Part shown: positions 8,189-20,713 of the stretch, piece after piece
How the letters are laid out: every line of letters starts with the position of its first letter
How positions within the stretch are numbered: the stretch's first letter is position 1
Source: a virus
Reading direction: 5' to 3' (one strand)
DNA length: 20,713 nt
IMG/VR virus record: IMGVR_UViG_3300029908_000179
Span: 1 to 20,713 of that record
Translations under genes and position numbers: made by a program
The notes under the pieces: generated by a model
What the model saw: the letters and a program-made list of their open reading frames with translations, nothing else
What the model was told of the DNA's origin: nothing
Database searches by the model: none

Positions 8189-8775
8189 GCTATCCGGCCG
8201 GGACTTTAAACCTTGTTCTGATCCAGGACGCAATATACGATTGGATCGAAGGTATTACTCAAGGCGTTTTCCCCGAAGGCGAGGAGGGGGAGCATATCCA
8301 ATGGATGGATCAATCTGCACCGCTACAGGCACGCCCGCTCGTTACGTTGAAAATCATCGACGGTCCGCGCCCAATCGGGCGTTCGGCGAATCTCTTTTTC
8401 AACCCCGACGAGAGCACCAAGCTGAATCCGTTCTCGGTAGGCATGCAGATGGAAATGACGCTATCCGTGCAGGTGTTCGGAAACACCAACATTCACCGGC
8501 CGATGGCTATGCAACTCTCGATGGACCTGAACTCGTCGCTGATGCGGCAAAGCGTCTTGGACAAACTGAAAGCGGCCGGGATCTCTGTTCAGGAAGTGGG
8601 TCGGCCTCGGAATCTTACGGCGCTCGAAGAGACGGCCTACGAGGAGCGCAGCGGGTTCGAACTTACGCTCGGACTGGCTCAGAACCTAAGCGATCAACCG
8701 GGCGTGATCGAAACCGTGAACCTGGAAATCGAAACGCCTTCCGGAAACAGAACCAAAAGCATAGTTTTACCCTAG
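8185..8775 (+). CDS. Tail terminator / neck protein-like
   Basis: A 196-residue protein coupled to the preceding gene by ATGA. It opens with a helix (I-Q-D-A-I-Y-D-W-I), continues with R-P-L-V-T-L-K-I-I-D-G-P-R-P-I-G, an E-M-T-L-S-V-Q-V-F-G strand, a helix with residues around L-D-K-L-K-A-A-G-I, then E-R-S-G-F-E-L-T-L-G-L-A, and ends near V-N-L-E-I-E-T. This order matches phage neck-terminator proteins that cap the tail tube and join it to the head. It lies directly before the sheath gene, as expected. Confidence 0.75.
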   Translation: MSYPAGTLNLVLIQDAIYDWIEGITQGVFPEGEEGEHIQWMDQSAPLQARPLVTLKIIDGPRPIGRSANLFFNPDESTKLNPFSVGMQMEMTLSVQVFGNTNIHRPMAMQLSMDLNSSLMRQSVLDKLKAAGISVQEVGRPRNLTALEETAYEERSGFELTLGLAQNLSDQPGVIETVNLEIETPSGNRTKSIVLP

Positions 8776-8786
8776 GAGGGTTTTAA

Positions 8787-10124
8787 ATGGCATCGCCAGC
8801 ACTTATCGTAAACGTCACCATCACGAAAAGCACCCGGACGGTGCAGGTCGCTTCGTTCAACATCCCCGTCATCTTTGGACCGTCTGATCGGTTCTCGGAC
8901 GTGTACCGAGTTTACGACAGCACGGACGGAATGACTTCCGACGGGTTCATGTCGAGCGACCCTGAGTTTATTGAAGCGGTTGCGCTGAGTTCGCAAGCCA
9001 TCGTCCCTGCTCAGTGGCTGATCGGTAAGTTTACGGCCGCCGTTGATCAGGTCGATACCTTCCAAGTCGGAACCCTGACCCCTTCGCACGCGTACAAATT
9101 CACGATGAATAGCACCGTGATTCAGTACACGTCGCAGCCAAGCGGCGATACTCAGCAATCGATTTTGGCGGCTCTCCTCGCCGCGATTGCTACCGCATTC
9201 CCGACCAACTCGCCAGTGACCGGCGCGGTGACCGGAAGCGGTTCCGGCGCAACGCTGACCCTCACGTCCTCGACTCCGGGCCTCGGCATCAGCTACACGG
9301 CGGTCGACTCGGATCTGACCCACGTGAACACGACTCCGAACCACACCATCGTCCAGGACATCGAGGCTCTCTACGCGGTCGTGACCCCGAACGTTTACCC
9401 GTACGGCGTCATTTGCACGAGCCACGTCGCATCGGACATTATTCAAATCGCGACCTACATCGAGACTCAGCTTCTCGTGTACGTCACGGCGACGCTTGAT
9501 TCCGCTGTGCTTTCAAACTCGGCCGGAAACGTCATGGCCACTCTCATGGGCCTCGCGTTCGACCGCACGCTGATCCTGTACTCCGCTCAGGCGAATACGA
9601 ACGGTCCGGACGGGGCGTGGATGGGCTACATGCTTTCGACGACTCCGGGAACGGGTAACTGGGCGATGAAAACCCTGGCCGGAGTTACTCCGGACAATCT
9701 CAACCCAACTCAGATCGCAAATATCCTCGCGAACAACGGGAATATTTACGTCACGATCGGCGGGAACGGAACCACGCTGTACGGAATCACGCCGGCCGGA
9801 GAGTATTTCGACGTTACGATTTTCCTCGACTGGCTCGCCTCTACGATTCAGACGAATATCATTGCGATTGAAACCGACCCGCTCAACCTCAAAATCCCTT
9901 ACACGAATCAAGGGATCGCGATGTTGGAAAGCGGAATCGCTTCGGCCATGAAGCAAGGTCAGAATCAAAACGGACTCGCTCCCGGCTGGGACGTGTTCGC
10001 TCCAGACGTGTCGCAAGTCACTTCGGCCGATAAATCGAACCGTGTGTTGAATGGAATCGGAGCGAATGGCGAGCTTGCCGGCGCGATCAACAAAATCAAC
10101 GTGCAAGTCTACGTCACGAGCTAA
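8787..10124 (+). CDS. Contractile tail sheath protein (DUF3383)
   Basis: A 445-residue protein after an AGGAGG ribosome-binding site. The opening V-N-V-T-I-T-K and S-F-N-I-P-V-I-F-G-P-S-D-R-F match DUF3383 proteins, which are the tail sheaths of a group of myoviruses. Residues about 90-180 form an inserted beta domain (F-T-M-N-S-T-V-I-Q-Y-T-S-Q-P-S-G-D-T, then G-A-T-L-T-L-T-S-S-T-P-G), usually exposed on the sheath surface. The C-terminal third, with P-Y-T-N-Q-G-I-A-M-L-E-S-G-I and the final beta strand, would form the core that meshes with neighbouring subunits. The tail-tube gene follows after 25 bases. This gene is the main evidence for a contractile tail. Confidence 0.9.
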   Translation: MASPALIVNVTITKSTRTVQVASFNIPVIFGPSDRFSDVYRVYDSTDGMTSDGFMSSDPEFIEAVALSSQAIVPAQWLIGKFTAAVDQVDTFQVGTLTPSHAYKFTMNSTVIQYTSQPSGDTQQSILAALLAAIATAFPTNSPVTGAVTGSGSGATLTLTSSTPGLGISYTAVDSDLTHVNTTPNHTIVQDIEALYAVVTPNVYPYGVICTSHVASDIIQIATYIETQLLVYVTATLDSAVLSNSAGNVMATLMGLAFDRTLILYSAQANTNGPDGAWMGYMLSTTPGTGNWAMKTLAGVTPDNLNPTQIANILANNGNIYVTIGGNGTTLYGITPAGEYFDVTIFLDWLASTIQTNIIAIETDPLNLKIPYTNQGIAMLESGIASAMKQGQNQNGLAPGWDVFAPDVSQVTSADKSNRVLNGIGANGELAGAINKINVQVYVTS

Positions 10125-15801: not shown

Positions 15802-16196
15802 GCGATCTCGGAATGAACCTCGTGACAAACGATTTAGATATCCGAAACGGAGACCTTTATCTCGTCACCGGCACCGACGCCATCGCTCAGAACCTTCAAC
15901 AGACGCTCCAGCTCTGGCTCGGCGAGTGGTTCCTAGACACGACCAAGGGCATTCCGTTTAAACAGCAAATCCTGATCAAGAATCCAAACTTAGACGTCGT
16001 ACAGGCGGACATTGTAAACGCGGCCGTCGCGGTTCCGGGCGTAACTCAGGTCATGAACGTGACCTTCAACTACTCAAATCAAAGCCGGACCTTTTCGATT
16101 TCAGTGGATGCTCAGACCAGTACGGGGGAGATTATAACCGTGCCAGCTCAAATTACTTTACCAACTAACTCTACGATCCAAGGGACGCCATCATGA
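15798..16196 (+). CDS. Baseplate wedge protein, gp25-like
   Basis: A 132-residue protein coupled on both sides by ATGA. It shows the gp25/GPW pattern: an N-terminal D-L-D-I-R-N-G-D-L-Y-L-V-T-G, A-I-A-Q-N-L-Q-Q-T-L-Q-L-W-L-G-E-W-F-L-D, then G-I-P-F-K-Q-Q-I and P-G-V-T-Q-V-M-N-V. The acidic E in L-G-E-W-F is part of the core conserved in this family. The wedge links the sheath to the J-like protein and starts sheath assembly. Confidence 0.87.
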   Translation: MSDLGMNLVTNDLDIRNGDLYLVTGTDAIAQNLQQTLQLWLGEWFLDTTKGIPFKQQILIKNPNLDVVQADIVNAAVAVPGVTQVMNVTFNYSNQSRTFSISVDAQTSTGEIITVPAQITLPTNSTIQGTPS

Positions 16197-17689
16197 GCGC
16201 TGGCACTGGGTATGGCGTAACGGTCCAAGGCTTCGTTCTTCCGCTGCTCACCGATCTTCTTACCGATCTAAATAATGCGGTTCAGGCTCAATTCGGGGCC
16301 GACGCGAACGTAGCCCCTCAAGCTTTTTTTGGTCAGCTCAATGGCATCATTGCAGAGCGCCTGTCGCTCGTGTGGCAAGCCATGCAGGATACCTATTTCT
16401 CTGCCGTCCCTGACGAGGCTTCCGGCGCGTCTCTGGACAACGTGGGCGCGCTCCGGGGGATTCCAAGACTTCAGGCGTCTGCATCCGTTCAGCAAAATGA
16501 AAAGCTTTTTGGTGTCAGTGGCACCCTGATCCCTGCCGGGACTCAGTTCTCGGTTCAGAACGCGCCAGCGAGCGTGTTCGCGACTGCGGCCGATGCGACG
16601 CTTGGACCTGGGGCGAACTGCATTCAGACGCTCACATTTTCCGGAACGCCGGTCAGTGGTGTTTGGACGGTTGCGAACGCTGAGCAATCCACCGGAAATC
16701 TCGCGTACAACATCACGGCGTCTGTTCTTCAATCTGCGATTCAGACTCTTCCTTTTTGCTCTGGGTGCACCGTCACCGGAAGCTATACCGCAGGATTTAC
16801 TGTCAATTTCAATGGTGCCGGAACCGGCGGCCTCATGGTTCAGCCTCAGTTCACATCAACATCGACGATGGTCACTTCGGGAAGTACGCCGGTCACCGTC
16901 GCCACCGAAATCACACAAGCCGGTGTCGATCAGCTTTCCGTCACGCTCACGGCTACCGACACCGGTCCGATCATCGCGAACGCAGGAACGCTTACCAACA
17001 TCCTGACTCCCGTATCCGGCCTCACGAACGCGCTCAACATCACCGACGCCACTGTGGGCTCGAATGTCGAAACGGATACCGCCTACCGCGCGCGTATGGC
17101 GGAAGAGCTTCAAATCGCTGGCGCAGGCACCGTGGAAGCGATTCGGGCGAAATTGCTAGCAACTACCGGCGTTGAATCCGCGCTCGTTTACGAAAATGTG
17201 GACGACGTTCCAGACGGAGACGGAAGACCTCCGCATTGCTTCGAGTGCGTCGTCAACGGCGGGACCGACGCGGCGGTTGCGGAAGCCATTTGGCTTGCGA
17301 AGCCGGCCGGGATCGAAACTTACGGGTCGAGCAATTATACGATCACCGATTCGCAGGGGCAGACTCACGTCATTTACTTCTCACGGCCGACACTCGTTGA
17401 CGTCTACATCACGGCCAACCTGCTCGTGAACTTGAATTTTCCATCGAACGGTCAGGCGCTCATTCAAACGATTTTTGACACCTACATCAACAGCCTGAAT
17501 CAAGGTGTGAGCGTTATCGTGGATCCGTACCTGACGGCACAACTCGCGAGTATCCCGGGCATCGACTACGCGACGATTTACGTCTCGACCACGCCGGGGC
17601 CAACGGAGTCGAACAACATTCCGATCGCGGCTTACGAGCAGGCGTTCACTCAAACTGATTTCATCATCATCAACAAGAGCGCGGGGTGA
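16193..17689 (+). CDS. Baseplate wedge protein J / gp47-like with an inserted beta domain
   Basis: A 498-residue protein coupled to the gp25-like gene by ATGA. Family landmarks are the N-terminal helix region with A-V-Q-A-Q-F-G and S-G-A-S-L-D-N-V-G-A-L-R-G-I-P-R, the G-T-L-I-P-A-G-T-Q-F segment, G-P-I-I-A-N-A-G-T-L-T-N-I-L-T-P-V-S-G-L, D-T-A-Y-R-A-R-M at about 295-302 and G-V-E-S-A-L-V-Y-E-N. Residues about 141-245 are an extra Thr/Gly-rich beta domain with C189-x2-C192 that the common family form lacks. The C-terminus ends in a typical I-P-I-A-A-Y-E-Q-A-F stretch. With gp25 and the I-like protein it forms the wedge unit of the baseplate. Confidence 0.88.
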   Translation: MSAGTGYGVTVQGFVLPLLTDLLTDLNNAVQAQFGADANVAPQAFFGQLNGIIAERLSLVWQAMQDTYFSAVPDEASGASLDNVGALRGIPRLQASASVQQNEKLFGVSGTLIPAGTQFSVQNAPASVFATAADATLGPGANCIQTLTFSGTPVSGVWTVANAEQSTGNLAYNITASVLQSAIQTLPFCSGCTVTGSYTAGFTVNFNGAGTGGLMVQPQFTSTSTMVTSGSTPVTVATEITQAGVDQLSVTLTATDTGPIIANAGTLTNILTPVSGLTNALNITDATVGSNVETDTAYRARMAEELQIAGAGTVEAIRAKLLATTGVESALVYENVDDVPDGDGRPPHCFECVVNGGTDAAVAEAIWLAKPAGIETYGSSNYTITDSQGQTHVIYFSRPTLVDVYITANLLVNLNFPSNGQALIQTIFDTYINSLNQGVSVIVDPYLTAQLASIPGIDYATIYVSTTPGPTESNNIPIAAYEQAFTQTDFIIINKSAG

Positions 17690-17692
17690 TGA

Positions 17693-18373
17693 TTGTTTAC
17701 TCCGATTAATAACCACGTAGAGCAGGCAATTGCGAGACTGGTCACCCAGTACAAAAACGCGCCTAATTTGCAGGGTTTAATCACTGCTATCGTTGAGCAG
17801 ATTCAGATCATCGAGAACTCGCTCACCGACATGAACACGCTTCGGTATTTGCCGGACGCGCAAGGACAGCAACTCGACAATATCGGTCAAATCGTTGGCA
17901 TCGCCCGCCCGGCCGGCATGAGCGATGCGCTTTACCTGAACCTCATTCTTGGCCAGATTAAAATCAACACGTCCCAGGGTCAGCCCGAACAGGTCATCCA
18001 GCTTTTCCTGCTTTTGACCGGAGCTCCGTTCGTGATCCTTTACGAAGGCGCGAACGCGGAAATTCTGCTCGAGTCTTCATTTCAAGTCCCTGACCAACCG
18101 ACTGCGGACAATCTGATCGAAACAATATCTCAGGCCACTCCGGCCGGGGTCCGTGTCGACGGAATCGTGTCCTTCGATCCAACCATGGCGTTCGCCTATG
18201 ACGGCCCGCTGCCCGGGTTCGGGTACGACGATGGAAGTCAAACGGTTGGCGGGAAGTACGCGGAACTTTGGGAGTATGCCGGTGGTGGATTCGCCTATGA
18301 CGGAAGCGATCCATCAGGGCTCGGGTACGGAAGCCTTTCAGATCCATTGTGTGGAGGGACGTACTTAACATGA
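17693..18373 (+). CDS. Baseplate protein I-like (DUF2612)
   Basis: A 226-residue protein beginning at TTG 17693, four bases after the J-like stop, with GGGGTGAT as ribosome-binding site; the nearby ATG at 17689 is out of frame and stops after six codons. The helical N-terminal half with L-P-D-A-Q-G-Q-Q-L-D-N-I-G-Q-I-V-G-I-A-R is the DUF2612 signature. The C-terminal region has two copies of F-A-Y-D-G followed by G-F-G-Y/G-L-G-Y and a C-G-G-T-Y end, as in related tail proteins that connect wedge to fibre. Its stop codon overlaps the start of the HNH gene. Confidence 0.85.
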   Translation: MFTPINNHVEQAIARLVTQYKNAPNLQGLITAIVEQIQIIENSLTDMNTLRYLPDAQGQQLDNIGQIVGIARPAGMSDALYLNLILGQIKINTSQGQPEQVIQLFLLLTGAPFVILYEGANAEILLESSFQVPDQPTADNLIETISQATPAGVRVDGIVSFDPTMAFAYDGPLPGFGYDDGSQTVGGKYAELWEYAGGGFAYDGSDPSGLGYGSLSDPLCGGTYLT

Positions 18374-18867
18374 CCCCAATAGAAGAAATCGAACTTATAA
18401 AAGATTTTGAACGATACTTTGAATATCACTCTGATGGTTATTTGATTAGAAAAAAGTCTCTTCCTGGGAGTGGGCCATCTGGTTCTATAGTTAAAAGCCA
18501 TCCTAATAAGAAAACTGGACATTCAACGATTGGGTTTAAGAAAAAAAATTACTACGTTCACAGGGTGATATTCGCCATTGTGAATGGTTATTTTCCTGAT
18601 CAGGTCGATCACATTGATCGAAATCCACTTAATAATAAAATTGAAAACCTAAGAGAATGCACAGCTCTTCAAAATATGTGGAACCGGACTAGGAACAAAG
18701 ACGGAAACATTAAAGGTCTGGATTTTCACGGTGCGACAAATAGGTGGCGCGGTAGAATAAAGGTTTCTGGGGCGGTTCATTTCTTTCAATCTAAAGACAA
18801 AGAAAAAGTGATCCTGTGGCTAGCTGAGAGTCGATCTAAGCTACACGGAGAATTTGCATGCGCGTAA
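18370..18867 (+). CDS. HNH homing endonuclease with AP2-like domain
   Basis: A 165-residue protein. ATG at 18370 is chosen since it overlaps the DUF2612 stop (ATGA), though a TTG at 18349 is in frame. Residues about 60-106 form an HNH motif: H64-R65, D80-H81-I82-D83, N88-N89 and the N-L-R at 93-95. Residues 116-160 (G-L-D-F-H-G-A-T-N-R-W-R-G-R-I) look like a small AP2-type DNA-binding domain, a common pairing in phage homing nucleases. The gene is clearly more A+T-rich than its neighbours and uses AGA, ATA and AAA often, suggesting separate origin. It is freestanding; I see no intron or intein signs in the flanking genes. Confidence 0.9.
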   Translation: MTPIEEIELIKDFERYFEYHSDGYLIRKKSLPGSGPSGSIVKSHPNKKTGHSTIGFKKKNYYVHRVIFAIVNGYFPDQVDHIDRNPLNNKIENLRECTALQNMWNRTRNKDGNIKGLDFHGATNRWRGRIKVSGAVHFFQSKDKEKVILWLAESRSKLHGEFACA

Positions 18868-18894: not shown

Positions 18895-19920
18895 ATGTCA
18901 AATCCAACGCAGCCAAACGTTTTACCGGCGTGGACCCAGGGGAATAACTCCGTCAGGCAACAGCCGACGGATGGCGAGCAGCTCACCGGGTTTACTCCGA
19001 ACTTTAGACCTCCTTCCGGATGGCATAACTGGTTGTTTGGTATCCTATCCGACTGGATCGCATGGCTGAATTTCATCACGGCGAACCCGGGCTATTTCCC
19101 GGTCAGTAATGCCGGCCACCACGTCGCGACCGCAGGAAACCTTCAGGGTCAGCTCGACCAGCTCGACGCCGTTATGTCGACGCTCGGTTTGGTCGTCATC
19201 CCGACCGTTCAAGGCAACGGAACTCAAGTCGCCTTTCCTCTCCCGCAGGCTCCGATCAACGCGAACTCCGCCGTTCCTACCCTGGACGGAGTCGAGTGCC
19301 AAGAGTCAGAATATACGGTCGAGCAGATCAGCGGAACGTGGAATGTCGTTTTCGGTACGGCTCCAGCGGCTGGTCAGCAAGTAAGCGGATTTATTTTGAC
19401 CGGCTCTTCCGGGGTCGGTGTGGGCGGCGGCGTCGGCGCGATTGAGAACGCTCCCGGCGGAGTAGGTATTTTTTATCAGAACGACGTAAACGTTGCGGTT
19501 CTGAAGTCACTTATCGCCGGCACGAACATGACCATCACCGACGACGCCGATGGGAACATAACCCTGTCGTCTACTGGCGGCGGTGGCGGATCGATCGAAG
19601 TGCATGGCTCTGCATCTGCTCCTGTTTCGGTCGTTCCCGGGACTGGCGTCGTGCCTACTACTGCGGCCGAGCAGGTTTGGTGGATTCAGCCAAGCGCTGG
19701 ATCGGGAGCGGTGCCGATCACGGCGACTCCTCCTATCGCTGCGGGAACCACGGTCGGGCAGCGCTTGAAACTTAAATCGGTAGCGGCTGCGAACTACCTT
19801 ACGATTCCCAATGTGTCCGGAGTGGACATGAACGGCCCGATCAACATGGGGACGTATGGTCAGGCGATTGACTATACGTGGGATGGCACTAATTGGTCTG
19901 AAGACTCTCGGAGGGTCTAA
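18895..19920 (+). CDS. Tail fibre / receptor-binding-like protein
   Basis: A 341-residue protein after TTAGGGGAG. The N-terminal 60 residues contain F-R-P-P-S-G-W-H-N-W-L-F-G-I-L-S-D-W-I-A-W, a recognisable attachment-type start of phage fibres. The middle is beta-rich and Gly-rich, with V-Q-G-N-G-T-Q-V-A-F-P-L and a Gly-Val-Gly hinge. A Gly run (about 227-231) precedes the last 100 residues, which match the C-terminus of the next protein: A-T-P-P-I-A-A-G-T-T-V-G-Q-R-L-K-L, a D-M-N-G-P motif and W-D-G-T-N-W-S-E-D-S-R. The shared end is probably a head domain for binding or trimerisation. Confidence 0.7.
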   Translation: MSNPTQPNVLPAWTQGNNSVRQQPTDGEQLTGFTPNFRPPSGWHNWLFGILSDWIAWLNFITANPGYFPVSNAGHHVATAGNLQGQLDQLDAVMSTLGLVVIPTVQGNGTQVAFPLPQAPINANSAVPTLDGVECQESEYTVEQISGTWNVVFGTAPAAGQQVSGFILTGSSGVGVGGGVGAIENAPGGVGIFYQNDVNVAVLKSLIAGTNMTITDDADGNITLSSTGGGGGSIEVHGSASAPVSVVPGTGVVPTTAAEQVWWIQPSAGSGAVPITATPPIAAGTTVGQRLKLKSVAAANYLTIPNVSGVDMNGPINMGTYGQAIDYTWDGTNWSEDSRRV

Positions 19921-19922
19921 TC

Positions 19923-20660
19923 ATGAAACGGATTTCACTTCTTTTACTGGCTTTTATTTTCACTGCTCAGGCTTTTGCGTCCAGCACTACGATTAAGCAG
20001 GCAGACACGATTCAGAACTCGACCGGCGGTAGCGCTCTTTCTGTTCCGAGCACGGGTACGACGTTCGCGACCGACACTAATACGCTTACTCTGACGAGCA
20101 AGACGATTTCTGGGGCAAGCAACACGCTCTCGAATATCCCTGTCAGCGCGCTGAGCACGGGGACTGCAATCGGAGTGAATACGGGCGGCACGGGCCTCGC
20201 CACTCTGACGGCTGGATACCTCCTATCCGGTAACGGGACCTCGTCGGTTAACCTTATCGCGCCTGGCTCGAGCGGGAACGTTCTGACCTCGAATGGTTCG
20301 ACTTGGTCGAGTTCCGCTCCGTCTTCGAGCGCCCCTACGGTCGTCTCAACCTTCGCTTCCCCGTCTTCGGTCACGGCTGTCGGCGGCGTCACGTTCACTT
20401 CCACCAACGCTTTGACGGTCAACTATATCGCCGGCAGCGGCGGCGCGGTAACGGTCACGGCCAGCCCTCAAATCGCGGCCGGAACGGTCAACGGTCAGAT
20501 GTTGACCCTGGTCGGAACGAGCGCAACGAATACCGTTAAAATTCAAGACGGCACCGGGCTCGCTTTGAACGGTCCGTGGGTCGGCGCTCTCAGCTCGGTC
20601 ATCAACCTTGAGTGGGATAACGGGGCTTCCGTTTGGCGCGAAACCTCCCGAAATAACTAA
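19923..20660 (+). CDS. Signal-peptide-bearing fibre-like protein
   Basis: A 245-residue protein that starts two bases after the fibre stop, with GGAGG in the end of that gene. Residues 1-19 are a textbook Sec signal: K2-R3, a leucine-rich core, and A-F-A before S-S. The rest is a Ser/Thr/Gly-rich beta chain with G-G-T-G-L-A-T-L-T-A-G-Y-L-L-S-G-N-G and G-S-S-G-N-V-L-T-S-N-G-S-T-W units often seen in phage fibres and environmental phage structural proteins. The C-terminal 85 residues are related to the fibre's. Export of a virion protein is unexpected, so it may be a periplasmic or surface protein, or the hydrophobic start may serve another purpose. No function is assigned. Confidence 0.7.
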   Translation: MKRISLLLLAFIFTAQAFASSTTIKQADTIQNSTGGSALSVPSTGTTFATDTNTLTLTSKTISGASNTLSNIPVSALSTGTAIGVNTGGTGLATLTAGYLLSGNGTSSVNLIAPGSSGNVLTSNGSTWSSSAPSSSAPTVVSTFASPSSVTAVGGVTFTSTNALTVNYIAGSGGAVTVTASPQIAAGTVNGQMLTLVGTSATNTVKIQDGTGLALNGPWVGALSSVINLEWDNGASVWRETSRNN

Positions 20661-20671
20661 GGGAACCTGCG

Positions 20672-20713
20672 ATGAAACTCAGAGAGCTATTGTGGCTGTT
20701 TTTTCTTCCGGGG
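20672..20713 (+). CDS. Start of a further gene, cut by the window edge
   Basis: ATG at 20672 follows AAGGGAA with suitable spacing, eleven bases after the preceding stop. Only 14 codons are visible: a basic start (K2, R4) then a hydrophobic L-L-W-L-F-F-L-P run, which may be a signal peptide or membrane segment. Nothing more can be said. Confidence 0.5.
   Translation, partial: MKLRELLWLFFLPG

Follow-up and report, generated by a model that had tools for sequence, protein, structure and literature searches.

A cassette of fibre-like proteins with predicted Sec signal peptides beside the tail fibre gene of uncultured phages

Tailed-phage fibres are held to be produced and assembled in the cytoplasm, and an export signal is usually absent from tailed-phage virion proteins. 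Why, then, does a gene directly behind a phage tail fibre gene begin with what looks like a Sec signal peptide? The gene, here called A, lies near the end of the window, the whole stretch of 20,713 nucleotides that was analysed. The window, a virus record of 20.7 kb, contains the tail region of a phage with a contractile tail and has the following features.

8787-10124: sheath gene (phrog_205)
16193-17689: baseplate J gene
17693-18373: baseplate protein gene
18895-19920, + strand: gene F, the upstream virion-type fibre, 341 aa, without signal peptide
19615-19914, + strand: residues 241-340 of F, its C-terminal domain, paralogous to the A end
19910-19914, + strand: ribosome-binding site GGAGG of gene A
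19923-20660, + strand: gene A, predicted exported fibre-like protein, 245 aa
19923-19979, + strand: predicted Sec signal peptide of A (residues 1-19, AFA then S)
20355-20657, + strand: residues 145-245 of A, the predicted C-terminal beta-sandwich and a paralogue of the F end
20673-20713, + strand: start of gene B, with signal peptide MKLRELLWLFFLPG..., interrupted by the end of the window

Between the baseplate protein gene and F sits an HNH endonuclease gene (phrog_99; 18371-18867), which is apparently AT-richer than its flanks and is a likely homing insertion. Residues 261-335 of F match Phage_depo_C weakly, under the curated cut-off. A scan of the window for promoters and terminators gave results no better than shuffles.

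The start ATG of A lies 2 bases past the stop codon of F, with GGAGG upstream at normal spacing, and the protein opens with a Sec-type signal peptide, MKRISLLLLAFIFTAQAFA, followed by SSTT. Two positive residues, an 8-residue core with a mean hydropathy of 3.4 and AFA at residues 17-19 provide the n, h and c regions in a rule-based test. The signal-peptide calls given here rest on this simple rule, not on SignalP, and 3.7% of shuffled N-termini pass it. The test bears out the clear N-terminal signal with an A-F-A site that the first-pass annotation had described. A start codon just downstream of the signal, which the same annotation had raised, is ruled out: codons 2-84 contain no ATG, GTG or TTG, the first after codon 1 being codon 85, so that such a start is unavailable in the sequence.

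Behind the signal peptide, A consists of a 45-aa linking motif, a Gly-rich shaft repeat and a C-terminal beta-sandwich. Neither Pfam nor PHROG assigned a family to A, and in a sequence search of the PDB (E ≤ 1) A1 had no match and A3 a single unrelated weak one. The structure model is good solely for residues ~160-245 (block pLDDT 60-88), where the predicted fold is like those of phage tailspike and T4 gp10-type beta-sandwiches. Fold matches include the tailspike Solidus_gp83 (Z 8.7) and TSP4 of CBA120; further resemblances of the model are to StcE and to a domain of 6o38, a chaperone-substrate complex (Z 10.2). Such middling Z values for a modelled domain indicate fold, not function. The proposed kinship of the C-terminus with the upstream fibre holds, with 40% over 103 aa, and with E 3.7e-7 in the window's own record.

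Is A a single curiosity of one phage? A is present at 100% identity in four other viral contigs. Contig L003, identical to the window, continues the row past A with B (148 aa; L003:2283-2729), C (683 aa) and then small membrane proteins, and both B and C have signal peptides. Downstream of the cassette in this phage lies a further signal-peptide gene (L003:6164-7507; 448+ aa) without a PHROG match. Relatives of A, ~42-57% identical, were found in 11 further viral contigs, with the signal kept in all. The order F, A, B, C, with A-B-C directly 3' of F, is common to nearly all of them; L017 breaks off inside A, L013 inside C, and L007 stops shortly past B. In the deviating contig L012 the third gene is of mixed type and the F-like gene, too, bears a signal; the 175-kb contig L193 has four cassette-type genes. 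Queries with B and C singly matched few loci.

Across 12 distinct contigs every cassette protein has a signal peptide, all cassette genes start with ATG and most have a clear Shine-Dalgarno sequence, whereas F lacks a signal in 11 of the 12 phages. Among proteins with homology to mature A, the signal is present in 21/21 cassette members, as against 1/11 F proteins and 5/98 other fibre relatives. The average identity of the signal sequence is 32%, compared with 44-50% for the rest of A (50% for the end domain), which indicates that the signal property is kept though the letters change; hydropathy and AxA-type sites persist despite the divergence. The lipobox rule flagged none of A, B or C, and no outer-membrane sorting signal was found in the cassette proteins. 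Judged from these sequences, A is the first gene of a multi-gene cassette of predicted exported fibre-like proteins, and the original observation is larger than stated.

The cassette occurs in phages of two or more contractile-tail lineages, with sheaths of the families phrog_205 and phrog_165, and in one 175-kb contig. The latter also carries a tRNA with a CTA anticodon (L264:4045-4119), called Pyl by ARAGORN, which may be an amber suppressor, and a cluster of five other tRNAs. Four cassette phages have a second family of large predicted exported proteins (535-1318 aa; a signal, then ADTPP.G.V), at L254:10632-13571 (-), L257:5953-9909 (-), L268:5471-7078 (-) and L135:3807-6689 (+). In three of these phages it lies near head-side genes, far from the cassette, and in L135 it lies beside the cassette.

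Are these proteins really exported? Even cysteine counts are favoured in exported proteins of disulfide-forming Gram-negative bacteria (PMC7678975). The counts in mature A, B and C are even in 21 cases, odd in 3 and zero in 7 (21:3, p 1.4e-4), as compared with 33 even and 35 odd in the control, non-signal-peptide ORFs of at least 100 aa from the cassette loci (Fisher p 7e-4); both p-values are optimistic because the relatives are not independent, the six phages that bear the end-domain cysteine pair being one clade. That pair, with a spacing of ~49-53 residues in the end domain of A, is complete in six phages and wholly missing in five, and the matching positions in F hold no cysteines. The window's own A, B and C have 0, 2 and 14 cysteines, respectively. 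Export is thus strongly supported by the conserved signals and start sites and the even cysteine counts, in agreement with what had been proposed for A, and we consider it very probable that export of the cassette proteins is real.

The domains of A and B recur within the fibre: F ends in an A-type domain and has a B-type one in its middle. A tree of the end domains has a branch (99/96) that separates the A ends from the F ends, and the A end shows no co-variation with the F end of the same phage (Mantel r 0.02, p 0.45). The split in the tree and the absent co-variation suggest that A and F most likely diverged a single time, long ago, after which A most likely moved or evolved on its own. Since the tip of A does not track the tip of its own F, A need not bind the same receptor. 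Coating of the host surface with superinfection exclusion, as the first-pass annotation suggested, may still apply, but the prediction of simple receptor mimicry failed in this comparison, and plain mimicry of the phage's own receptor is weakened as a candidate.

The cassette was not found in 50,697 phage records. Among the deposited phage records, the A query gave one match, C-terminal only, in a Manatee Spring podovirus; there was no match to C, nor to A of L011, and with the B query the tail-fibre domain alone was matched, in signal-less proteins. In the Manatee Spring podovirus record MW202898, a gene annotated as 'caprin-2 domain protein' (L188:8227-10947) directly follows a tail fibre gene and would, with the ATG at 8227 as its start, encode a signal peptide. 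In bacteria, the C module had no match among ~1,480 genomes of five phyla (340 + 195 + 398 + 296 + 247), and the same search recovers 9/10 cassette virus records. A scan of bacterial genomes with A1 returned the generic fibre repeat only, and a baseplate profile gave weak generic matches only. Bdellovibrio as the host, a candidate prompted by its MAT proteins, was not supported by the searches. Short signal peptides fit a diderm host.

What might exported paralogues of a fibre do? The sequences establish conserved signals, even cysteine counts, domains shared with F and an operon-like order. The explanation that we prefer, and put forward tentatively, is that the cassette proteins are Sec-exported fibre-type proteins, adhesin-like on the host envelope, which limit re-adsorption or loss to debris. 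The Sec machinery of the host would export A, B and C, with a fourth protein in some phages, probably at a late stage of infection. The signal would be cleaved after export, and the proteins would fold in the periplasm, with disulfides in many members, the window's A being without cysteine. At the host envelope the adhesin-like fibres would most likely have surface or nascent glycans as their target, and would thereby keep progeny virions or sister phages from re-adsorbing to the infected cell or debris; for the debris role, release at lysis would suffice. Such a role in limiting re-adsorption or progeny loss to debris is uncertain, and we suggest it as perhaps applicable because of the precedent of T5 Llp, an exported phage protein whose gene lies beside that of the receptor-binding protein and which stops re-adsorption and non-productive binding to debris (PMC9586334). 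No integrase was found in 11 contigs, several of them fragments, which is in line with a lytic, late function.

The proteins could instead be virion fibres that acquire their disulfides in the periplasm after export and are attached via F or the baseplate at lysis, which we regard as possible but doubtful. The genes are located where extra fibre subunits usually sit, and the domains are common to F. Within a phage, two co-variations are what docking parts would be expected to show: that of the A N-module with B (r 0.54; p 0.0007, without correction for the 21 pairs tested) and that of B with the end of F (r 0.45, p 0.01). Both correlations, however, come from ~10 phages and may be explained by gene conversion. 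The lack of co-variation between the A end and F also speaks against attached fibres, and no tailed-phage precedent was found in the literature searched. That tailed phages secrete fibre subunits, oxidise them in the periplasm and join them to virions at lysis would amount to a new assembly route and is, in our estimate, unlikely.

We also think it improbable that the cassette serves another task in the envelope, such as adhesion of the infected cell or, during lysis, binding of capsule, peptidoglycan or outer-membrane parts. Holin-like small membrane-protein genes adjoin the cassette in most contigs, and C, which has a conserved N-module, ends variably with weak C1q/PA14-like or carbohydrate-module-like resemblance, both of which would suit such a task, as would PblB, a pneumococcal prophage tail protein with a putative signal peptide that has been described as an adhesin (PMC4508584). 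A search for an enzymatic or lysis domain, however, found none, and the absence of an integrase gives no sign of lysogenic conversion.

That the signal does not work, and that A, B and C are ordinary fibres assembled in the cytoplasm, is very unlikely. The fibre repeats and the ends look like those of typical virion proteins, and most fibre relatives are signal-less, but the signal is conserved at three gene positions in 12 phages, cysteine parity is unlike that of the non-signal-peptide ORFs, and F is signal-less in the same phages. Capture by the phage of a host surface-adhesin gene, for example that of a predatory-bacterial mosaic adhesive trimer protein, is hardly credible and the earlier idea of a host-type surface protein is not upheld, for although bacterial secreted fibres in many genomes have the GGTG...LTSNGSTW repeat together with a signal peptide, and the MAT proteins of Bdellovibrio resemble phage fibres and have signal peptides (PMC10769870), it is the generic repeat alone that matches bacteria, the ends match the phage's own F, and the C module is absent from the ~1,480 bacterial genomes searched.

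Our analysis suggests that a group of uncultured phages delivers fibre proteins to the host envelope, within it or on its surface, beyond building them into particles. Exported fibre paralogues would be either a new kind of phage adhesin that affects adsorption to the infected cell or a new route of assembly, and both readings are testable with reporter fusions and purified proteins.

How do the cassette proteins compare with known systems? The C-terminal beta-sandwich, the B-type middle domain and the genomic place are common to A/B and tail fibres, here the window's F, whereas A, B and C have a signal peptide and even cysteine counts and F is signal-less. As far as the predicted signal goes, A is not an ordinary virion fibre. 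The Bdellovibrio MAT proteins also combine a signal peptide, a phage-fibre-like shaft and varied adhesive ends (PMC10769870). They are, however, encoded by bacterial genes and have a conserved ~130 aa domain directly after the signal. A continues after its signal with the 45-aa motif and the shaft repeat, and the PDB sequence search (E ≤ 1) with A1 and A3 gave no match to the solved MAT parts. Lambda Lom (PMC12309495) and PblB (PMC4508584) are likewise products with a signal peptide, encoded by phage genes near tail genes, but Lom forms a barrel in the outer membrane, PblB belongs to the tail of a prophage with a monoderm host, and an A-B-C set of fibre paralogues is seen with neither. T5 Llp/Cor is likewise a host-exported phage protein with its gene beside that of the receptor-binding protein (PMC9586334). 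By the lipobox rule, A, B and C are not lipoproteins of the Llp type: Llp is a small lipoprotein and no copy of the receptor-binding protein, whereas A-C are larger, lack a lipobox and are paralogues of the fibre itself.
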